Assembly: GCA_023382265.1 (NCBI GenBank)
Contig: JAMCPX010000008.1
Span: 1-64,000, forward strand
DNA length: 64,000 bases
DNA from: Deltaproteobacteria bacterium
GTDB taxonomy: Bacteria; JAMCPX01
Direction: 5' to 3'
The notes below the pieces were generated by a model. That model ran no database searches, was not told where the DNA came from, and saw only the letters and a program-made list of their open reading frames with translations. The translations under genes and the position numbers were made by a program. This document shows, in pieces, positions 34,578 to 59,624 of this stretch (position 1 is the stretch's first letter; every line of letters starts with the position of its first letter).

Positions 34578-34640
34578 ATGAGAGATAAGTATCTTTTTCT
34601 ATGCGCATTATTTAGAGGCATCATTCTAATCCCTGAATGA
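34578..34640 (+). CDS. Possible 20-residue ORF with a strong ribosome site
   Basis: AGGAGG stands 9 bases before an ATG that opens MRDKYLFLCALFRGIILIPE, a hydrophobic peptide ending in TGA at 34638-34640. It overlaps the 3' end of the convergent CoA-transferase gene by 15 bases. No family is known. It may be a relic of a gene start next to the repeat, or chance. Confidence 0.25.
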   Translation: MRDKYLFLCALFRGIILIPE

Positions 34641-36509
34641 CATCTTGAGTTCGTACATACCGCCTTCCGATTTCTTTTCTATATTGAACCCTGCATTCTC
34701 CAGCAGATGGAGCATGTGTTTGTTTTCCATAAGAAGAGCGGCTGTAAAACCGTGAAGCCCATTTTTCTTTGCAATATAGGTTATATAAGAAAGCAGCTCA
34801 GTGCCTATTCCGTGATTCTGATAATCATCCCTTACAACAAATGCAACCTCGGCGGTATGCCTTGTTGTATCTATAAGATACTGTGCCATGCCAATGATCA
34901 TCTCCTTTTCTTCTTTCCCGGTTATTGCAAGTATTATCATTTCTTTTGTGTAATCGATCGCCACAAACTGCTGCAATCTGTTGTGGGGCATGTCTGTCCT
35001 GGTTGAGATAAAACGACGGTACATAGAATCGTCTGAAAGTGCGTAGAAAAAATCCTTTAACAGAGGCTCGTCGCTGATTTTTACAGGACGTAATAAAATC
35101 TCAAATTCTCTGTTCGTTGTTCTGTACGTTTCAAGTGCCTCGGGATATTCACCTTTTATACCCTTGATAAAGGTTTGATCCCTGTATATAAGATTATTTG
35201 CCTTTGCCGCCTCTATAAGCCATCCTCTGAAGCTTGGATGCGCTATTGATATTAAGTCCATTGCACGTTCTCTCAGGTTCTTGCCGTGCAGATATGCTAT
35301 GCCGTACTCTGTTACTACATAGTGTATGTCACCCGGCGTTAATGTTATCTTCGCCCCCTCGCTCAGAAATGGGACGATACGGGAAACTCCTCCGTTTTTC
35401 GCTGTTGACTGCAGCACAAGTATGGTTTTACCGCCCTGCGATAATATCGCTCCGCGCATAAAATCAGCCTGCCCACCGATTCCGCTGTAAAATGATCTGC
35501 CTATTGTCTCTGCCGTCGCCTGTCCTGAAAGATCGATCTCGAGTGCACTATTTATGGCCGTCATGTTCTTCTGACGGGCAATCAAAGCGGGATTATTCGT
35601 ATAATTTACAGGGCGGAATTCTATTGCCGGATTATCATGCAGGAATTCATAAGTTTCTTTTTTCCCCATACAGAAAGCTGCCACTGTTTTCCAGCGGTTG
35701 AGTTCTTTTTTACTGTTATCTATTACTCCCTTTTTCATAAGAGATACAATACCGTCGGATAAAAGTTCCGTATGAACACCGATGTTTTTTTTGTTTGAGA
35801 GCTGGCATAGGATCGCATTCGGTAAACTTCCATATCCAACCTGGATAGTATCTCCGTCCTGTACGATCTGAGAAACGTATGTACCAATCCTGTTCGCAAT
35901 ATCATTGGGGACATTGAAGCCGAACTCAAGCAAAGGTTCATTGTAAGGTATTATAAAGTTTATATCCTTCGCATGTATAAACGTTTCTCCAAGAACCCTT
36001 GGCATATAACTGTTGACCTGTGCAACAACCATATATGCGTTCTCCACAGCAGATTTAACAATGTCAACACTTATGCCCAGACTAAAATATCCATGCTCAT
36101 CCGGCATGGAAGTTTGTATAAAAGCCATGTCTATAGGTATGAATTTTTTACGAAACAGCTCGGGAACCTGCCACAGAAACACAGGTGAATAATCTGCTAT
36201 GCCTTTGTTGATCGTATCCCTGGTATTTGCACCTATGAAGAAAAAGTTGTGACGAAAATTGTCCTTGAATTTCTCGTCAAGATACGGGGTAACGCCAAGG
36301 GTCCAGACCTGGAGCAGCTCCGCATCCACAAAGCTTTTGGGATGTGATTGAACATAATTTATCAAAGCGCCTACAAGATACTGAGGCTCCCCGCAGCCTG
36401 TACCGATAAATATTCTGTTGCCCGGGTGTATCTGACCGAACACCCTGCTCTCTGAAACAAATTTATCGGGATAACGCTTTTTGAGACTGTCCAAATTATT
36501 ATCCGTCAT
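34626..36509 (-). CDS. Acetyl-CoA hydrolase/transferase fused to a GNAT acetyltransferase
   Basis: 627 residues. The first about 460 form an acetyl-CoA hydrolase/4-hydroxybutyrate CoA-transferase unit (IFIGTGCGEPQYLVGALINY, SGIGGQADFMRGA, VVTEYGIAYLHGKNLRERA). From about 470 a GNAT domain follows (LLRPVKISDEPLLKDFFYAL, VAFVVRDDYQNHGIGTELLS with the acetyl-CoA loop). The enzyme part would interconvert acetyl-CoA and another CoA ester or free acetate. GNAT fusions are known for acyl-CoA enzymes and may acetylate or allosterically sense. It overlaps the sigma-54 regulator by 4 bases (ATGA), so it belongs to the acetate sensor operon. Confidence 0.88.
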   Translation of the reverse strand: MTDNNLDSLKKRYPDKFVSESRVFGQIHPGNRIFIGTGCGEPQYLVGALINYVQSHPKSFVDAELLQVWTLGVTPYLDEKFKDNFRHNFFFIGANTRDTINKGIADYSPVFLWQVPELFRKKFIPIDMAFIQTSMPDEHGYFSLGISVDIVKSAVENAYMVVAQVNSYMPRVLGETFIHAKDINFIIPYNEPLLEFGFNVPNDIANRIGTYVSQIVQDGDTIQVGYGSLPNAILCQLSNKKNIGVHTELLSDGIVSLMKKGVIDNSKKELNRWKTVAAFCMGKKETYEFLHDNPAIEFRPVNYTNNPALIARQKNMTAINSALEIDLSGQATAETIGRSFYSGIGGQADFMRGAILSQGGKTILVLQSTAKNGGVSRIVPFLSEGAKITLTPGDIHYVVTEYGIAYLHGKNLRERAMDLISIAHPSFRGWLIEAAKANNLIYRDQTFIKGIKGEYPEALETYRTTNREFEILLRPVKISDEPLLKDFFYALSDDSMYRRFISTRTDMPHNRLQQFVAIDYTKEMIILAITGKEEKEMIIGMAQYLIDTTRHTAEVAFVVRDDYQNHGIGTELLSYITYIAKKNGLHGFTAALLMENKHMLHLLENAGFNIEKKSEGGMYELKMSFRD

Positions 36510-37849
36510 TTTCTAAGCCCCCATCTCTTTCTTTTTTCCCACAATGCCTTTCTCGTTATACCAAGCATGTCTGCAAGCTGTGTTTCATTGTAGCTGTCCT
36601 GATATTTAACAATAAAAGCCTTTGTATAATCCTCGATAGATAATTTATTGGATATTGCATCATTAATTGGAGAATCCCCTGATCTGATATTCTCCGGCAG
36701 ATGTTCCGGCTTTATGGTGCCGTCTTCTGTTATGAGGATTGACCTTTCCATAACGTTTTGAAGCTCCCTTACATTACCATTCCAGTAATAGGATTTTAAA
36801 TAATCCATAGTCCTTTCATCTATACCGGTAATAGGTTTACCAAGTTCTTTTGAATACTTGTTAACAATGTACTTTACAAGAGGTTCTATATCTTCCCTTC
36901 TCTCTCTGAGCGGCGGAAGTTTTATTGTGATAACATTTATTCTGTAAAAAAGATCAGCCCTGAATGTGCCTTCCTTTACCATACTTTCTATATCTCTATT
37001 TGTGGCAAAAAGAAACCTTACATCGATCTTTATACTCTGTGTACTGCCTACAGGCCTTATATCGCGATCTTCAAGAACCCTTAACAGCTTTGACTGCAAT
37101 CCAATACCAATATCACCTATTTCATCAAGGAACACCGTCCCTTTGTCCGCCTGGACAAATAGTCCGTTCTTGGAATTTAATGCCCCTGTAAAAGCACCCT
37201 TAACGTATCCAAACAGCTCCGATTCAAGAAGGTTTTCAGGAATTGCGCTGCAGTTTATAGGTACAAACGGGTTATCCGCCCTCCTTCCGTTGAAGTGCAT
37301 TGCCCTTGCTATAAGTTCCTTGCCGGTACCGGTTTCCCCGAGAATCAAGACGTTACTCTTTGTATCCGCAACCTTCTTTATATGATTTATTACATCATTC
37401 ATTAAAGAGCTGCTGGCAATTATGTCTGTAAAGGCATACTGCCTCTCTATCTGTTTCTTTAGTATCATATTTTCACTTTGAAGTGTATGCTGCTTTACGG
37501 CATTCTTTACCGTTTGTTTTATCTCTTCGTGGATTATTGGTTTTACAATATAATCGTATGCTCCAAGCCTGATCGCCCTGATGGCCGTATCTATGGACGC
37601 ATAAGCAGTTATAATGATAACTATCTGTTCGGGCAGCCTTTCTTTTATCTGTTTGAGTAAATCTATACCGTCGATGCCCGGCAGTATAATATCTGTTATA
37701 ACAACATGATAAACATTCATGTTGAGCATCTCGAGGGCGGATTCCGCACTATTAGTAACATCCACATCGTAGCCTTCTTTTGAGAATACTCTCTGTATGG
37801 ACTCGCTAAGGGTCTGTTCATCATCAACAATAAGTAATCTTTCTGCCAT
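36506..37849 (-). CDS. Sigma-54-dependent response regulator (NtrC/CbrB/CrbR type)
   Basis: 447 residues in three domains. The receiver (1 to about 120) has the phospho-acceptor Asp in VVITDIILPGIDGIDLL. The AAA+ domain (about 140-380) has Walker A ILGETGTGKELIARAMH, the sigma-54 contact loop GAFTGA and Walker B TVFLDEIGDIG. A Fis-type helix-turn-helix ends the protein (ETQLADMLGITRKALWEKRK). It lies 3 bases after the symporter-kinase gene and is its evident partner. A -24/-12 promoter stands upstream of the nearby satP-acs genes (45332-45346), the probable target. Confidence 0.95.
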   Translation of the reverse strand: MAERLLIVDDEQTLSESIQRVFSKEGYDVDVTNSAESALEMLNMNVYHVVITDIILPGIDGIDLLKQIKERLPEQIVIIITAYASIDTAIRAIRLGAYDYIVKPIIHEEIKQTVKNAVKQHTLQSENMILKKQIERQYAFTDIIASSSLMNDVINHIKKVADTKSNVLILGETGTGKELIARAMHFNGRRADNPFVPINCSAIPENLLESELFGYVKGAFTGALNSKNGLFVQADKGTVFLDEIGDIGIGLQSKLLRVLEDRDIRPVGSTQSIKIDVRFLFATNRDIESMVKEGTFRADLFYRINVITIKLPPLRERREDIEPLVKYIVNKYSKELGKPITGIDERTMDYLKSYYWNGNVRELQNVMERSILITEDGTIKPEHLPENIRSGDSPINDAISNKLSIEDYTKAFIVKYQDSYNETQLADMLGITRKALWEKRKRWGLRK

Positions 37850-37852
37850 TGC

Positions 37853-40822
37853 TTAACCTGCTTTAATATTATCTCTTATGGGAAGCGTTATAACAAATAC
37901 CGTTCCCTCACCTTTTTTACTGTTAACCGAAATGTTACCATTATATTCTTTTATAATATTATAGCATATATTTAATCCCAATCCTGTACCTCTGCTTAAT
38001 GGCTTTGTTGTAAAAAAAGGATCGAATATTTTGTCTACAACAGATGGATCAATACCTGTACCTGTATCCCTGAACCGTATTTCAACAAAACCATCATTTA
38101 CCGTCGTACTAATATCAAGCCTTCCACCTCCAGGCATGGCATCAAGTGCATTTAGAATAAGGTTTAAAAAAACTTGCTGCATTTGATCCGCATTGACAAG
38201 TAACTCGGGAATGCCATCGGCATATTTGTTGAACTCTATGTGCTTAAATCTTTTATCGTATTTTACCAGACTAATAGTGCGATCAATTATTTCTGATATA
38301 TTAGAAACCGTTTTACCAGATGAATATACTCTTGCGAAATCTCCGAGACTCCTGACTATTTTGGCTATCCTTTCTATATGATTGTTTATTGTATTCAATG
38401 ACTCAACTGTAAATGATATATCCTTCCTGGTATTAAACCTCAATATCCTCAGCTCCTGAACGAGGGAAAAAATGGATGCAAGAGGATTACCTATTTCATG
38501 GGCAATACCAGCCGTTAATTTTCCTATGTTTGCTAACTTAGATGCCTGAAATAGCTGTTCCTCCATTTTCTTTTTCTCGGATATATCTTCAATAATGATA
38601 ACAAAACCGCCAAGCGGGTCATTAAACAGGCTTGTTTTCACCCTAAATGTTTTCCCACCCTGATCTCTCAGGGTTAATTCGTTTTCTACGTTTTGCATGA
38701 AGACCCTGTTTGGGAGCCATGGCAGTAAGAGCAGTATAGATCTGCTCAGTGCTTCGGCTTTCTTAATGCCGCTTAATTGTTCCATCTCCCTGTTCCAGTA
38801 GTTTACCTTTAAAAACCCGTTCACCGTAATAATACCAACAAGTGCACTATCTATAATGTTCTCGCTGAACTTTTTAAGATACATCAATTCTCTGTTCCTC
38901 TCTGTGAGTTCCTGACGTGATGTCCTAAGGCTTCTTGTTATGTACTTAATGGATTCGGAGAGCTCCTCTCTTTCATTCTCTGTTAATACAAGCTTGTCCT
39001 CAAAGATGATCGACGACATGGGTATTCCTATTGCACTTGCAAGGACCATTTCTGCATCATTGCGCAGTTCAAAAAGTTCTCTCGGTGTGAGCTGCTCTCT
39101 GGTGGTATCCTTTCTGGTCAGAAAACGTTGAACAGCTTCGTATGCCTCTGAATGCCCTATATATTGTGCAAGCAGGTCTTCTATATCTGTTACATTATAA
39201 GAACTGCCAACGGTAAGCTCCTTTATTTTTTCATACGACTCAACGAATACGAGTGCCTGTATCTCTTCCTCTTTTGATCTTTTTGTAAACACTGATACCC
39301 CGATATAAAGCATTACATTAAACAACATACTCCATACGAGCGGGCCTGCCCATCTGCCAAGTCCATGTACACCGAACATCGTATCCGGATTTAATAACTT
39401 TGAGTCCATCATACGCCCGACTACACCGGTACGGGATATTATACCTGCTTTAACCATACCTGGCATCATAAGCATATAGAACCACACTAAAAAACCTGCG
39501 ATGAGCCCTGTTAAGGCGCCAGCCTTGTTTCCCCTTCTCCAGTAAAGCCCGAGAAAGAATGCAGGTGCGAAAAGGGATACGGCCTCGAACGACCTTAACC
39601 CTATATCTACGAGGCTATAAAACTCACCGATGTATGCGGCAAAAAGGTAGCCTAAAAATATGATCATAAGGATTACCAGTCTTTTTATGTTGAGCACCCA
39701 ATCATGGAACTGAGGCATGTTATGAAAGTTTACGAGACCGGGCATGACAATACTGTTCATGATCATAGTACTGAGTGCGATGGACGATACGATCATCATG
39801 CTCATCGCAGCAGAGAATCCTCCGATAAAGGCGAACAAGGAGAGAAAATGACTGCCATACTTTAATGGCAGAGTAAGGACAAAGTAATCAGCCCTATGTT
39901 CTGTCACGCCTTTAAGCAACCCTGCAAATGCAATGGGTAATACAAATATGTTAATCAAAAAAAGATAAAGAGGAAAAAGCCACATAGCCTTTGTAATATG
40001 CGATTCGTCATAATTCTCCACAACGGACATTTGGAATTGCCTCGGCAGGAATACGATTGCCATCATGGACAGAAAATTAAGGGCAAACCACTCGCCGTAG
40101 CTCGTTCCTGAACCATTACCGATTAAAAGAAGTTTTGAATATCCTGCATGCTTGATCTGTGAAAAGATATCGCCGAATCCATGAAACAAAAAATAGGTTA
40201 CAAAGATACCTACCGATATAAATGCAATCAATTTAATAATGGATTCAAATGCTATAGCAAAAACAATACCACTGTGCCTTTCTGATGAATCAAGATGTCT
40301 TGCACCAAAGATAATGGCGAATATACTCACTCCAAATGTAATGCCCAGACCAACGATACCTGTGCTCGTCGATTCACCTGTTATAATGGTAAAGGTGCTC
40401 ATTATGGCATTGATCTGCAGACCAAGATAAGGAATAACCCCTATAACTGCTATAATGGTAACCACAGCGGAAAGTGTGAGAGATTTTCCGTACCTTGAAC
40501 CTATGAAATCCGATATAGTTGTAATCCTATTTGCTTTCGTGATCCTGATAACCTTCTTCAGCACAACGGGCCAGAGCACAGCCATAAGGGTTGGACCTAT
40601 GTAAATAGTCAGGAATGCAAGCCCTGAAGTAGCCGCCTTTCCAACACTTCCATAAAACGTCCATGAACTGCAGTATACTGCAAGAGATAACGAGTAAATG
40701 TACGGATTGTTTACTATGCTGCTGCCTGCTTTTTCTTTTCTCTCGGCATGGTATGCTATGATAAAAAGTATTACCAGATAAGCCAGTGCGATAAAAAGGA
40801 GATATACGGAGTGGATATTCAT
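37853..40822 (-). CDS. Hybrid sodium/solute symporter-histidine kinase (CbrA/CrbS type)
   Basis: 989 residues. Residues 1 to about 510 are an SLC5/SSS symporter domain of about 13 helices (VYCSSWTFYGSVGKAATSGL). A STAC-like linker follows (YEKIKELTVGSSYNVTDIED), then a PAS domain (about 650-750). HisKA has GIAHEIGNPLASIFS (phospho-His), and the ATPase domain has NLILNALDAMPGGG and DTGTGIDPSVVDKIFDPFF. CrbS-type proteins control acetyl-CoA synthetase in Vibrio and Pseudomonas, and acs is 1.6 kb away here. TAAGGAC serves as ribosome site and contains the stop of the small gene upstream, 8 bases away. Whether it transports is unknown. Confidence 0.94.
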   Translation of the reverse strand: MNIHSVYLLFIALAYLVILFIIAYHAERKEKAGSSIVNNPYIYSLSLAVYCSSWTFYGSVGKAATSGLAFLTIYIGPTLMAVLWPVVLKKVIRITKANRITTISDFIGSRYGKSLTLSAVVTIIAVIGVIPYLGLQINAIMSTFTIITGESTSTGIVGLGITFGVSIFAIIFGARHLDSSERHSGIVFAIAFESIIKLIAFISVGIFVTYFLFHGFGDIFSQIKHAGYSKLLLIGNGSGTSYGEWFALNFLSMMAIVFLPRQFQMSVVENYDESHITKAMWLFPLYLFLINIFVLPIAFAGLLKGVTEHRADYFVLTLPLKYGSHFLSLFAFIGGFSAAMSMMIVSSIALSTMIMNSIVMPGLVNFHNMPQFHDWVLNIKRLVILMIIFLGYLFAAYIGEFYSLVDIGLRSFEAVSLFAPAFFLGLYWRRGNKAGALTGLIAGFLVWFYMLMMPGMVKAGIISRTGVVGRMMDSKLLNPDTMFGVHGLGRWAGPLVWSMLFNVMLYIGVSVFTKRSKEEEIQALVFVESYEKIKELTVGSSYNVTDIEDLLAQYIGHSEAYEAVQRFLTRKDTTREQLTPRELFELRNDAEMVLASAIGIPMSSIIFEDKLVLTENEREELSESIKYITRSLRTSRQELTERNRELMYLKKFSENIIDSALVGIITVNGFLKVNYWNREMEQLSGIKKAEALSRSILLLLPWLPNRVFMQNVENELTLRDQGGKTFRVKTSLFNDPLGGFVIIIEDISEKKKMEEQLFQASKLANIGKLTAGIAHEIGNPLASIFSLVQELRILRFNTRKDISFTVESLNTINNHIERIAKIVRSLGDFARVYSSGKTVSNISEIIDRTISLVKYDKRFKHIEFNKYADGIPELLVNADQMQQVFLNLILNALDAMPGGGRLDISTTVNDGFVEIRFRDTGTGIDPSVVDKIFDPFFTTKPLSRGTGLGLNICYNIIKEYNGNISVNSKKGEGTVFVITLPIRDNIKAG

Positions 40823-40830
40823 CTTTGTCC

Positions 40831-40989
40831 TTAACTTATACGCAATATCAATGCAACAATGCCTATAAATAACGCCCAGAATATGAAAAGATACATACTA
40901 ACCCATGTTTGCACAATCTCAATAACAGGCCAGCTAAAGCCCAATAATCCAACTAAGAATATGAATATCCAGAGATCTCTACCCTTCAT
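40831..40989 (-). CDS. 52-residue two-helix membrane protein upstream of the symporter-kinase
   Basis: An ORF too short for routine calling. It begins MKGRDLWIFIFLVGLLGFSW, continues PVIEIVQTWVSMYLFIFWAL and ends FIGIVALILRIS. Two hydrophobic helices flank a WPVIE turn. It stops 8 bases before the kinase ATG and its stop overlaps the kinase ribosome site, so the two are translationally linked. Small membrane partners encoded beside sodium/solute symporters are known from other families; this one is probably a subunit or stabiliser of the symporter domain (inference). A weak AAGGGG lies 12 bases before its ATG. The 230 bases further upstream hold only the acs-operon terminator and no other gene. 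Confidence 0.7.
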   Translation of the reverse strand: MKGRDLWIFIFLVGLLGFSWPVIEIVQTWVSMYLFIFWALFIGIVALILRIS

Positions 40990-41173
40990 ATAATACACAA
41001 CCCCTTTTTACATAATCAGTTTAACCCTCTAACCCCGGATTTGCAATAATTGAATTTATGAGTTTCTCCATTCTGTTTCGCTTCATTCATGATGCCGTCG
41101 AGCGAGTTCCGTGGATACAGGAACAGACTGTTTGTGACTGGGGATAATATGATAATTCGTAAATTTTTATAAA

Positions 41174-41202
41174 AAAGGACATAGTATAAAACCATGTCCT
41201 TT
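41174..41202 (-). terminator. Intrinsic terminator of the satP-acs-porin run
   Basis: On the minus strand, AAAGGACAT and ATGTCCTTT form a perfect 9-bp stem with an 11-base loop, followed by TTTTAT. It lies 17 bases after the porin stop. Confidence 0.8.
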
Positions 41203-41218
41203 CCAACCTGTTTTACTT

Positions 41219-42445
41219 TTAAAAGAGTATTTGAAATTGCACTGTAGCTATATCCTGACCATGTGTGTCCACACCGGCGATCTTGCTGCTTTCACTGTCA
41301 ACCAAATACTCTGCTTTTATATTTGCCTCGTGTTCTTTTATCCAGTAATTCACGCCAAAGTGGTATCTTGTAAAATTAAGATATGTACCGCTGGCGGGTG
41401 TCTGTGAACTTGTAAAACTGTCAATCTTGATAACAGGCTCAAGCCTTCCCCATCCTATAACCCATGGAAACAGGTAACCCAGTTCTACATAATAAGCTGT
41501 CCCATCGTCATAATTAAGGTTATCATAATTATATCTCAGGTATGCTGCCTGTGCTGTAATGACCCCGCTGTCTATGGAGGGATAGGCAATAGGATAATCA
41601 AGGAACACATCCACATCGTAGGCGCTGTAATTACCGACCTTTGTAAAATTAACGTTGCTTGGGTCATCAGATATTGAATTTGGTTCTTCATCATAACTTG
41701 CACCGACCGAAAGAATCTTCTTTGCGCCCAGGTATGTGCCGGCATAGAAAAAACCAAGTACATCATCCGTGTCAAACACATTGTACTGTACCCTTCCGGT
41801 AAACCTCTTACTGTCACTCGGATTTAATACTGCCGCGGGTTCACCTGTGGTGGTTGTTGTTACCCTGGAGGTCTGCGCATCTACACCGTTCGATACAAGT
41901 GCTATGTAATTCAGGTGTCCATTGATCAGAAAACCGCTCAGTTCAGCACCAAAAACCCTTCCCACTACACTGCCGTTTACCGGGTACCTTCCGAATACAG
42001 AAGATATGTCATAATCCACCGGGAGCAATGAACTCGCTGCCTGCCTGCCGTTATGAGAGAATGGGAGCAGCAGCATGCCAGTGTCAAGCTTTACATCATT
42101 CCTGTAAAGGTGCAGCGTGATGTAAGCATCCTGAATAAAGAAACTCGGATTGGTGTTACCCCTTTTGCCGTAATCCGGCTCATCGGTCTCGACAAAATAA
42201 TTTACAAACGGTGTTACATTACCGAAAAGAAGAATCCTTGCCCTCCTGACAAAGAAGTCCCCTGCCCAGCCTTGCCTGTTATTAGTTGCGTCCTGTTCTG
42301 CCTGAGACTGTATCTGTAATAGGAACTTTACGGTAGTTGATGCGTCTTTACTTTCTGTAATTGTTACAGCGTATGAACTTCGTATACCACTAAACGCCAA
42401 TAACAATGCAACTACGATTGTTAAAACCCATAAACCATGTTTCAT
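41219..42445 (-). CDS. Outer-membrane porin, OprO/OprP-like
   Basis: 408 residues. A signal peptide (about 1-27, ending SSYA) leads into a porin O/P-type barrel: DFFVRRARILLFGNVTPFVN then YFVETD near the N-terminus, DVKLDTGMLLLPFSHNGRQA, and a terminal aromatic strand ending IATVQFQILF. AAAGGAGGATAT precedes the ATG at 42445; the open frame upstream is spurious. It is 13 bases after the acs stop, so it is likely induced with acetate use and may admit small anions. A terminator follows directly. Confidence 0.85.
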   Translation of the reverse strand: MKHGLWVLTIVVALLLAFSGIRSSYAVTITESKDASTTVKFLLQIQSQAEQDATNNRQGWAGDFFVRRARILLFGNVTPFVNYFVETDEPDYGKRGNTNPSFFIQDAYITLHLYRNDVKLDTGMLLLPFSHNGRQAASSLLPVDYDISSVFGRYPVNGSVVGRVFGAELSGFLINGHLNYIALVSNGVDAQTSRVTTTTTGEPAAVLNPSDSKRFTGRVQYNVFDTDDVLGFFYAGTYLGAKKILSVGASYDEEPNSISDDPSNVNFTKVGNYSAYDVDVFLDYPIAYPSIDSGVITAQAAYLRYNYDNLNYDDGTAYYVELGYLFPWVIGWGRLEPVIKIDSFTSSQTPASGTYLNFTRYHFGVNYWIKEHEANIKAEYLVDSESSKIAGVDTHGQDIATVQFQILF

Positions 42446-42458
42446 ATATCCTCCTTTA

Positions 42459-44564
42459 TTATTTTTCTTCCCCGAAATGCTCAAGGTCTTCCGGTGCTTT
42501 TTCCTCGGTTACCTTGTCCTTGCCCTGAACAAGTACGCGGATCTTTTCGACAATATCTGCATTGGCAAGTGTGGTAACATCACCCACATTAAACCTGTTT
42601 GAAATGGCTGAAAGCACCCTGCGCATGATCTTACCAGAACGTGTCTTCGGCATGTCCGGCACTATGTATATGTTTTTAGGCCTTGCAATCTTGCCGATCA
42701 CACTCTCAATGGTTGCCACTATTTTTTGTGCTATCTTTTCTCCCTGATTTTCATAACCTGGCTTTAAAGCTATATAAACAACAGGTACTCTTCCTTTCAC
42801 CTCGTCCACCACCGGCACAACAGCTGCTTCTGCAACCTCAGGGACTGTCAGACAGGCTGATTCCAATTCCTTTGTTCCAAGACGGTGGCCTGCTACATTG
42901 ATTACGTCGTCAATCCTGCCGAGTATCCTGAAATACCCGTCTTCAGCCTCCATGGCACCATCACCGGCAAAGTACGGCCAGTCTCTCCAATCCGTGCTGT
43001 TTTTATTCTTGCAGTACTTCTCGTAATAGGTTTTTACAAAACGATCCGGATCCCCCCATATTGTCTGGAAAATACCGGGCCATGGGTTCCTGATACAAAT
43101 GTTCCCTGCCCTGCCCGAGCCCTTTTCGATCTCTTTGGCATTCTCGTCATAAATAACAGGGTATATGCCGGGCATGCCAGGGCCCGCACTGCCTGGTTTC
43201 ATTGGTTTGATCGCCGGAATAGTACTGCATAAAAACCCGCCGTTCTCAGTCTGCCACCATGTGTCGACTATAGCGGCCTCTTTCTTTCCTACTTCATAGT
43301 AGTACCATCTCCAGACATCGGGCTCTATCGGTTCTCCAACGGTTGTCATGTGCTTGAAATGATAATTGTACTTAGCCGGCTCGTTCGGGCCTGCCTTCCT
43401 TAACATGCGTATGGATGTCGGTGCCGTATGAAAGATGTTTACGTTAAGACGCTCGGCGATCCTCCATGGCCGTCCGGCATCGGGATACGTCGGAACACCT
43501 TCGTACATAACGCTTGTTGCCGCAAGCGCAAGAGGTCCATACACGATGTACGAATGTCCGGTAATCCATCCTATATCCGCCATACACCAGTACACGTCTT
43601 CCGGATGAATATCCTGTATATATTTGGACGTTCCTGCTACGTACGAAAGATACCCTCCTGTGCTGTGCTGGGCACCCTTCGGCTTGCCTGTGGTGCCGCT
43701 TGTATACATGATAAACAGCGGTGCCTCCGCAGGCATTGATATCGGTTCCACCCGTGCGCCCTTGAATTCTTTAAGCAGATCGTCGATAAAGAAATCTCTG
43801 CCCTTTATCATGGGAGACTTCGATGCATATTGTCCTTTGTGTCTTCTCCATACGAGTACCTTGTCAACCTTCTGACCAAGTTCTTCTGCCCTTTTCACCG
43901 CTATGTCCGCATTAGCTTTATGATCTATAAGATTGCCGGACCGATAATAACCGTCTATTGTCACAAGAACCGTACTCTGTGAATCCTGAATCCTGTCACC
44001 GCATGCCTGTCCGCTGAAGCCACCGTACACCTCGGAATGGATGATACCTAGCCGTGCACTTGCAAGCATTGATATCGGCAATTCCGGCACCATGGGCAGG
44101 TGAAATGTTATTCTATCACCGGTTTTTAGGCCTGCAAAATCTCTCAGCAGTGCGGCAAATTCATTAACCCTTACAAAAAGCTCCTGATAGGTAATAACGG
44201 CATCCGATTCCTCTTCTGTCTCCGGTACCCAGATAAGAGCCGCTTTGTTTTTATACTTCTGAAGATGCCGGTCCACACAGTTATAACTCGCATTCAATTT
44301 GCCGCCTACAAACCATTTCCAGAATGGAGGGTTGCTTGTATCAAGGGTTGTATGCCAGTAGTGGTCCCACGTGAGCATGTCCGCATATTCTTTAAAACAT
44401 TCTGGAAAATGCTTCTCGCTAAAACGTTCGTATATATCAGGATCTGCCATGTTTGCCTGGGCAACAAAGGTTGTAGGCGGATAGATAAGCTCTTCCTCCT
44501 TCCAGTGTACGGCAATCTCTGCCTCGCTAAATCCCCTTCCGTTCTGCTTGATTTCGTTTGCCAT
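42459..44564 (-). CDS. acs: Acetyl-CoA synthetase (AMP-forming)
   Basis: 701 residues. Acs activates acetate with ATP and CoA through acetyl-AMP. The N-terminal ACAS domain is present (SEKHFPECFKEYADMLTWDH), followed by the AMP-binding core FIMYTSGTTGKPKGAQHSTG (about 285-304), WWQTENGG (acetate pocket) and RIDDVINVAGHRLGTKELES. PKTRSGKIMRR near the end holds the catalytic Lys that is often acetylated. AAGGAGGAT precedes the ATG at 44564. It lies between satP (about 100 bases upstream) and the porin, in an apparent sigma-54 operon. Confidence 0.96.
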   Translation of the reverse strand: MANEIKQNGRGFSEAEIAVHWKEEELIYPPTTFVAQANMADPDIYERFSEKHFPECFKEYADMLTWDHYWHTTLDTSNPPFWKWFVGGKLNASYNCVDRHLQKYKNKAALIWVPETEEESDAVITYQELFVRVNEFAALLRDFAGLKTGDRITFHLPMVPELPISMLASARLGIIHSEVYGGFSGQACGDRIQDSQSTVLVTIDGYYRSGNLIDHKANADIAVKRAEELGQKVDKVLVWRRHKGQYASKSPMIKGRDFFIDDLLKEFKGARVEPISMPAEAPLFIMYTSGTTGKPKGAQHSTGGYLSYVAGTSKYIQDIHPEDVYWCMADIGWITGHSYIVYGPLALAATSVMYEGVPTYPDAGRPWRIAERLNVNIFHTAPTSIRMLRKAGPNEPAKYNYHFKHMTTVGEPIEPDVWRWYYYEVGKKEAAIVDTWWQTENGGFLCSTIPAIKPMKPGSAGPGMPGIYPVIYDENAKEIEKGSGRAGNICIRNPWPGIFQTIWGDPDRFVKTYYEKYCKNKNSTDWRDWPYFAGDGAMEAEDGYFRILGRIDDVINVAGHRLGTKELESACLTVPEVAEAAVVPVVDEVKGRVPVVYIALKPGYENQGEKIAQKIVATIESVIGKIARPKNIYIVPDMPKTRSGKIMRRVLSAISNRFNVGDVTTLANADIVEKIRVLVQGKDKVTEEKAPEDLEHFGEEK

Positions 44565-44667
44565 AGATTTATTATCCTCCTTTTTGGATGTTTTATTTTG
44601 TACTGCTCTTTTAACACTTCCAGCATGCTTAGCCGGCTTCATAAAAGACGTATGTCCTGCCTTGTAC

Positions 44668-45264
44668 CTATTTAACAGGACCAACCGGCCATACTACGCT
44701 GCCATAAACTTCATTCAAAACCTGAGCAAGACCCGTATAAATTGCGGATAACCCGCAAATGATCCCTTCATACCCTGCTATTACATGGATTATCTTACTG
44801 CCGGTTGCATCACCGGCCGCAAGTAAGAAAAACAAAACGAACAATGTGAAAAATACGAATTGAAGAGCTTTGTTCAGTCTCAATGTTCCGATGTACATGA
44901 CCAGCGTAAAAATACCCCATAGGATCAAATAAGCAACCATCCCGCCTGTATCCTGACCTCCAATCCAACCCCATTTTCCGAAGAAAATGAGCGCAACAAG
45001 GGTCAGCCAGAAAAGTCCGAAAGATGTAAATGCAGTGGCACCAAAGGTATTTTTTTTCTTCCATTCTTCAATACCTGCAATAACCTGGGCTATGCCCCCG
45101 TAGAAAACACCCATCGCCATGATCATGCTTCCAAGAGAAATGATCCCGGCATTCGCAAGATTCAAAAGTACTGTTGTCATGCCAAAACCCAATAAGCCCA
45201 ATGGTGCCGGATTTCCTGTTGTGTCCTGAATTGCGGTTAAAACTACCTGTTTTTCTTCTGACAT
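44668..45264 (-). CDS. satP: Acetate uptake transporter (GPR1/FUN34/YaaH, SatP type)
   Basis: 198 residues with six membrane helices. The family signature [20 protein letters not shown] is near the N-terminus (about 17-36), and [20 protein letters not shown] then [12 protein letters not shown] form the other conserved block. SatP-like proteins carry acetate or succinate. AAAGGAGGTAG lies a few bases before the ATG. It is the first gene of the acs operon, with a -24/-12 promoter about 70-80 bases upstream. Confidence 0.94.
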
Positions 45265-45331
45265 AAACTACCTCCTTTAAAAATATTATTTTTTTCTGAT
45301 ATCAATCATATTCCCCTAAACAGGAAATAAA

Positions 45332-45346
45332 GCATGATAAGTGCCA
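45332..45346 (-). promoter_or_regulatory. Sigma-54 (-24/-12) promoter of satP-acs-porin
   Basis: On the minus strand TGGCAC, five bases, ATGC matches the consensus TGGCAC-N5-TTGC with the invariant GG and GC in correct spacing. It would start transcription near 45320, giving a leader of about 56 bases before satP. A sigma-54 activator is encoded in the neighbouring operon. Confidence 0.8.
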
Positions 45347-58694: not shown

Positions 58695-59624
58695 TTACCT
58701 GTTTTCAAGAGCTTCTAAACGTTTTATATCTTCTTCTACGGGTTCTGTCTTGAACCTATTATGTACCCAAAACCATTGTTCTGGCGATGCTTTAATATGT
58801 CTTTCTATAAGGGTTGTGAAATACTGTGTCCATTTTAACACAGCGAGCTCTTTATCGTCTTCATTTTTAAGTATAATGGGCTCTTCATATCTTATTGTAT
58901 AACCAGAGCCGTCAGGATTTTTTATAACATAGCCGGGGACAACAGCAGCTCCGGTTTTTAAAGCCATAAGAGCCATTGCGTATTGCGTTGCAGCAGGCTT
59001 GCCAAAAAATTTTACAAATACAGCCTCATGTCTGAGTGTGTTTTGATCAATAAGCATGGCTATTGTTTTTCCATGTTTGATAGCTCTTAGCAACCGAAAA
59101 ACAGAATTCCTTGGCTTTACTATATCTATGCCGGCATGATTCCTCATAGACTTGATATATCTATCTATATAGGGATTATGAATGTCCTTGGCTACGGCAA
59201 TCAGACCATCGTAACGTATGCTTTGAGCTGCAGCAGCCAGTTCCCAGTTGCCAAGATGGCTTGTAAGAATAAATACCCCTTTACCTCTTTTTTTCGCAAT
59301 CTCATAGTTTTCTGTCCCCTCAAATGTAACGATCTCATTTATATTTGTCTTATTAAGTTTTGATATGCGCGGGAAGTTTGCAAGTGTCGTGCCAAGTACT
59401 TTGAAGTTTTCTTTTATAATCAGCTTTCTTTCCTTTTCTCTCATCTCTGGAAATGCAAAACCGATGTTCGTCATTGCTATGTTTTTATGCTTAGGATCGA
59501 CCATATACCATATCGAGCCAAGAAACCGTCCCATATGATCAGCAGATGCCTGCGATATATGATTAAAGATAAATGCAACGGACAAAAATGCCCAATACTC
59601 AATCATATATCTTATCTTTTTCAT
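58695..59624 (-). CDS. Lipid A biosynthesis acyltransferase (LpxL/HtrB family)
   Basis: 309 residues. An N-terminal membrane helix precedes the HX4(D/E) motif in FILTSHLGNWELAAAA (about 119-134), then AMLIDQNTLRHEAVFVKFFG and TGAAVVPGYVIKNPDGSGYT, all in family order. These enzymes add a secondary acyl chain to lipid A at the inner membrane. Its ATG overlaps the stop of lpxK, giving coupled translation and supporting the lipid A role. Confidence 0.92.
   Translation of the reverse strand: MKKIRYMIEYWAFLSVAFIFNHISQASADHMGRFLGSIWYMVDPKHKNIAMTNIGFAFPEMREKERKLIIKENFKVLGTTLANFPRISKLNKTNINEIVTFEGTENYEIAKKRGKGVFILTSHLGNWELAAAAQSIRYDGLIAVAKDIHNPYIDRYIKSMRNHAGIDIVKPRNSVFRLLRAIKHGKTIAMLIDQNTLRHEAVFVKFFGKPAATQYAMALMALKTGAAVVPGYVIKNPDGSGYTIRYEEPIILKNEDDKELAVLKWTQYFTTLIERHIKASPEQWFWVHNRFKTEPVEEDIKRLEALENR

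Follow-up and report, generated by a model that had tools for sequence, protein, structure and literature searches.

A conserved two-helix membrane protein encoded directly upstream of SLC5-type sensor kinases is a probable CbrX-type subunit

Directly upstream of a gene for an SLC5-type sensor kinase, the window (the whole 64,000-nucleotide stretch of DNA analysed here) carries an open reading frame (ORF) of 52 codons, which raises the question of whether this ORF encodes a protein and, if so, what that protein does for the kinase. The original prediction described it as a coding-like ORF with hydrophobic helices and a WP turn, encoding a small subunit of the SLC5-like sensor domain, perhaps required for stability or ligand sensing. 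The coding part of this description was borne out: on the minus strand, from 40989 to 40831, the ORF translates as MKGRDLWIFIFLVGLLGFSWPVIEIVQTWVSMYLFIFWALFIGIVALILRIS, followed by a stop, giving a protein of 52 amino acids with two hydrophobic helices and a turn at W20-P21. The stop codon (40833-40831) is separated by an 8-nt gap from the kinase ATG at 40822, on the same minus strand. This gap, as well as the overlap of the stop with the Shine-Dalgarno sequence of the kinase, had been described correctly, with only the strand missing; the gene was also said to be unlisted, which holds for the window ORF but has to be qualified for its homologues, since in some plasmid records these are annotated as 'hypothetical protein'. 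The features of the locus are collected in Table 1.

Table 1. Coordinates of the small gene and of the neighbouring features in the window.
Feature	Position	Strand	Remarks
Gene for 52-aa two-helix membrane protein (probable CbrX-type subunit)	40831-40989	minus	ORF, conserved position, purifying selection, AF2 hairpin
Kinase ribosome site AAGGA	40828-40832	minus	overlaps the small gene's stop by two bases
AGGGG, possible ribosome site of the small gene	41001-41005	minus	11 nt upstream of the ATG, a rather long distance; found by inspection
989-aa sensor kinase: SSS/SLC5, PAS, HisKA, HATPase	37853-40822	minus	Pfam; match to 10ed_A
447-aa sigma-54-dependent NtrC/AtoC-type response regulator	36506-37849	minus	starts 3 nt past the kinase stop
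Acetyl-CoA hydrolase/transferase fused to GNAT domain	34626-36509	minus	4-nt overlap (ATGA) with the regulator gene
Outer-membrane porin-like protein	41219-42484	minus	flanked by acs and the small gene; the Porin_O_P match is weak, slightly under the curated cut-off
Acetyl-CoA synthetase (acs)	42459-44684	minus	upstream of the small gene, same strand
Acetate uptake transporter (AceTr/YaaH family)	44668-45264	minus	upstream, same strand; NF038013, 2.4e-78
Sigma-54-like -24/-12 site, TGGCACTTATCATGCT	45331-45346	minus	67 nt upstream of the acetate transporter gene; one mismatch

The check for a conserved ORF at this place in relatives, suggested along with the original prediction, came out in its favour: homologues are present at the same position, with 63-71% identity within the same family and 28-50% in Nitrospirota. 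When relatives were retrieved using the kinase alone as query, all ten had a small-ORF homologue directly upstream of the kinase, and throughout the window's phylum and Nitrospirota, such a homologue is found wherever the 5' end of the kinase can be read, two of the copies being diverged. A small-protein profile, built from those kinase-retrieved relatives and run blind on 198 Nitrospirota genomes, gave 35 matches, all but one in kinase-bearing genomes. Kinase searches of the same 198 genomes gave 37 positives, so that the two sets overlap in 34 (Fisher p of about 1e-33). Of the three kinase-only genomes, G184 has a kinase whose start lies beyond the contig, and G166 and G186 carry small ORFs that have diverged. 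The lone small-only genome (G138) holds a truncated remnant, frayed in the second helix, with the kinase absent; in all other Nitrospirota loci taken out, the small gene stands just ahead of the kinase. Five genomes of the window's phylum have both genes and four have neither. The spacing between the two genes in the loci taken out mostly ranges from -8 to +4 nt, with gaps of 36-78 nt in several, and in many relatives the GGAGG of the kinase falls within the final codons of the small gene. The G138 remnant (L086; G138:C9, about 190759-190857, minus strand) has acs about 50 nt downstream and apparently results from a deletion of the SLC5 kinase beside its presumed target gene.

The substitution pattern also points to a constraint on the protein. 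In codon comparisons, the dN/dS ratio of the small ORF is 0.07-0.41 where dS is measurable, synonymous sites being saturated in more distant pairs, and pN/pS is mostly about 1 or more in the two shifted frames. Non-synonymous changes are far rarer than synonymous ones in the frame of the small ORF, which is not the case in the other two, and the protein constraint that had been proposed as a check is thus present, in the form of strong purifying selection. Among 39 sequences, P21 and W38 are invariant and F9, F11, G14, W20, L34, F35, and I42 nearly so, forming the near-invariant W20-P21 and L34-F35-x-x-W38 motifs; these residues are located away from the Shine-Dalgarno sequence. The small ORF is a real protein gene.

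AlphaFold, run with 39 sequences, predicts a helical hairpin (helices 3-17, 20-25, and 27-51; mean pLDDT 90), and the mean numbers of lysines and arginines (1.2 at the N-terminus, 0.5 in the loop, and 2.5 in the C-terminal tail) are compatible with a cytoplasmic location of both termini. One-sided conservation was not significant on either helix. A Foldseek search with the hairpin alone returned no match, the family profile had no hit among solved structures, and Pfam and NCBIfam scans of the small protein and five relatives returned nothing usable, as no model covers the family. The small gene was also modelled jointly with the SLC5 domain by AF2, reading the stops as glycine where the frames agree (a device only). 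The SLC5 fold was recovered and matches SLC5 structures; the joint model was poor (mean pLDDT 61, about 40-60 in the small part), and docking could not be judged from it.

A precedent for the function of such a protein is offered by CbrX of Pseudomonas putida (PP5704), which has 58 amino acids, overlaps cbrA, and is co-transcribed and translationally coupled with it (PMC6591292). According to a 2026 cryo-EM preprint, CbrX forms a hairpin that has both ends inside and packs against TM3 and TM8 in the CbrA SLC5 domain (PDB 10ED; PMC13022988), a domain that transports histidine (PMC7096432, PMC8871633). A role at the dimer interface was proposed from AlphaFold models in the same work, which also reports CbrX to be dispensable for growth on histidine in P. 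putida, and calls its role unresolved (PMC13022988). The peptide is deposited there, as chain X, under the name 'MFS transporter', which is misleading for a two-helix peptide. Over residues 6-601, the window kinase matches chain A of 10ED (6.7e-77), its K197 aligns with the coupling-site lysine K196 of CbrA, and the same alignment points to a putative STAC region. The binding of CbrX to CbrA, and the homology of the window kinase to that chain, support the proposal that the SLC5 sensor domain has a small subunit: the small protein is, with good probability, a CbrX-type accessory subunit of the adjoining sensor kinase. That this subunit acts in dimerisation or signal passage is a more tentative proposal, and a requirement for it in stability or ligand sensing is less certain, given that growth on histidine does not depend on CbrX and that CbrA was still produced with an altered peptide of equal length (PMC13022988, PMC6591292).

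As such a subunit, the small protein would be made first, from the mRNA of the kinase, and ribosomes would terminate at the kinase ribosome site and start anew from it, by translational coupling. The short hairpin would then insert in the inner membrane with both ends cytoplasmic, and its two helices would pack on the outside of the SLC5 domain, in the manner of CbrX. Once docked, the hairpin would most likely stabilise the transporter-like domain and help two kinases to dimerise in the membrane, and substrate-driven movements could then reach the kinase and the NtrC-type regulator. For docking, dimer role, coupling in the window organism, and ligand, this scheme is drawn by analogy from 10ED and from the gene order. 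One point against the subunit model is that SLC5 kinases devoid of such a gene (CrbS/RpuS-type and other hybrids) do function.

The small gene could also be a pure translational leader, whose translation brings ribosomes to the kinase start and whose peptide is functionless. The tight spacing and the position of the kinase Shine-Dalgarno sequence within the end of the ORF would suit a leader, and in P. putida, a frame-shifted version of CbrX, unchanged in length, brought CbrA back almost to the wild-type level, a function of the CbrX peptide being judged highly improbable by the authors in 2019 (PMC6591292). Nevertheless, a leader should not have its amino acids under strong purifying selection, nor near-invariant residues off the Shine-Dalgarno sequence. 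In addition, several loci retain the protein across gaps of 36-78 nt, where only weak coupling would be expected, the folding of five loci revealed no RNA structure that would hide the kinase start, and CbrX is part of the CbrA structure (PMC13022988). As it leaves the protein-level constraint across phyla unexplained, the pure leader is inadequate and is considered unlikely.

Another explanation retains a subunit, and assigns it to a real transport function (uptake) of the SLC5 domain rather than to signalling. Other SLC5 proteins have small partners, such as human MAP17 with SGLT1 and SGLT2 (PDB entries), and both the histidine transport by the CbrA domain and the kept coupling-site lysine would be in line with uptake. 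However, every intact recovered copy accompanies a kinase and never a plain symporter, and the DUF485, DUF3311, DUF4212, and DUF997 profiles did not match five family members, even at E-values up to 10, which makes an uptake subunit very improbable. Finally, a chance ORF or annotation artefact, which the short length and the absence of a family model match might suggest, is refuted by the conservation, the co-inheritance, and the substitution pattern, and is given virtually no credence.

The genes that surround the small protein and its kinase give indications about the signal. The NtrC/AtoC-type regulator gene is kept beside the kinase in relatives, and the order with the hydrolase/transferase-GNAT gene is the same in four relatives of the same family. 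The acs and acetate transporter genes adjoin the window kinase, which recalls the control of acs by CrbS; judged from the gene neighbourhood alone, the kinase probably senses acetate or a comparable short acid. The listed TTG start of acs is probably too early. Sigma-54 motifs occur in the whole window at the frequency expected by chance, with one plausible site, that upstream of the acetate transporter gene (45331-45346), which may be a target of the NtrC-type regulator. A perfect fit to the sigma-54 consensus used, TGGCACGACACTTGCA, is found at 59379-59394 on the minus strand. By inspection only, a possible terminator (GGACAT-loop-ATGTCC, then T6; 41177-41199, minus strand) was noted 3' of the porin-like gene; the terminator scan passed over it because the loop exceeds the limit of the scan. 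In two same-family relatives (L006, 1097-3230; L008, 1095-3228), a second kinase/NtrC-type regulator pair lies just upstream of the small gene and occupies the place of the window's acs and porin-like genes, the regulator being 38-39% identical.

Recognisable small genes also precede plasmid-borne kinases of Pseudomonadota (Cupriavidus, Azoarcus, and two Paracoccus species), as well as three kinase paralogues of Nitrospirota. A matching small gene was absent at twelve kinases, including RpuS-type kinases and those of Acinetobacter, Halomonas, and Azospirillum. In a tree of 64 SLC5 domains, those with and those without the small gene are split by one branch (support 99/97), a result to be read with caution since the tree is unrooted, several branches are long, and the L129 and L130 scores are weak. 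Just upstream of an Aeromonas caviae kinase from the group without the small gene (L132), a hydrophobic ORF of about 65 codons was observed, with no match to the family profile.

What is new is how widely the small gene is distributed and that its peptide is constrained; it represents a new, widespread branch of a kind of protein reported, in the literature retrieved, only from Pseudomonadaceae. In Nitrospirota and in the window's phylum, the small gene and the SLC5 kinases are inherited together, and several Pseudomonadota have the gene too. The constraint challenges the published view that only the translation of CbrX matters, and the role of the peptide becomes directly testable, with the residues to change now named. 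An easily missed gene, of a small-protein family covered by no Pfam or NCBIfam model, thereby gains a defined place beside its kinase. It is conceivable, if doubtful, that SLC5 sensor kinases form two mechanistic classes, and that the peptide is a signalling part across several phyla and not a leader. The first class might depend on an obligatory two-helix subunit, holding the kinase dimer or passing the transporter movement on; with the same reserve, the second might consist of CrbS/RpuS-type hybrids that lost the subunit or never had it.

Several known systems resemble this one to different extents. MAP17 (PDZK1IP1) is likewise a small membrane protein that binds an SLC5 protein, but it is an animal protein and serves as an analogy only. 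The small partners of bacterial SSS symporters, such as DUF485/YjcH with ActP and DUF3311 with MctP, are also short membrane proteins encoded beside SLC5 proteins; DUF997/YhdT and DUF4212 are further partners of this kind. They differ in that the partner at the window is a kinase, and membership of a known symporter small-subunit family was rejected for want of a profile match. CrbS/CrbR and RpuS/RpuR share the SLC5-STAC histidine kinase, and CrbS controls acs and acetate use, but plasmid-borne relatives of the CrbS/RpuS type have no matching small gene upstream. A CrbS-type system was rejected, since CrbS is a hybrid (REC) kinase with a LuxR-type regulator, whereas the window kinase ends in HATPase and has a sigma-54 NtrC-type regulator.

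CbrX shares with the window protein a small two-helix membrane architecture, a position directly upstream of an SLC5-STAC-PAS histidine kinase, and, probably, coupling to it; both systems have an NtrC-type sigma-54 regulator, and the partner kinases are homologous over SLC5-STAC, including K196/K197. On the other hand, the window protein is shorter (52 versus 58 amino acids), its gene is separated from the kinase gene by 8 nt instead of overlapping it by 17 nt, and the W-P/L-F-x-x-W motif set is only partly present in CbrX. Published descriptions place the conservation of CbrX within Pseudomonas and Azotobacter and regard CbrAB as exclusive to that family, whereas the window family occurs in other phyla and has, at the window, an acetate gene neighbourhood. 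A direct profile match to P. putida CbrX was rejected, its score of 3-7 bits lying inside the decoy range and not being significant. The small protein of Amphritea is a clear CbrX homologue (5e-13 against 10ed_X), in a locus with the order gluQRS-small gene-kinase-sigma-54 regulator, and it scored 14-15 bits against the family profile, exceeding any true decoy and each of its 300 shuffles, four higher-scoring 'decoys' being unfiltered family members. Although not proven by sequence, a common ancestry of the small family with CbrX is likely because of the position, the architecture, and this weak Amphritea link.
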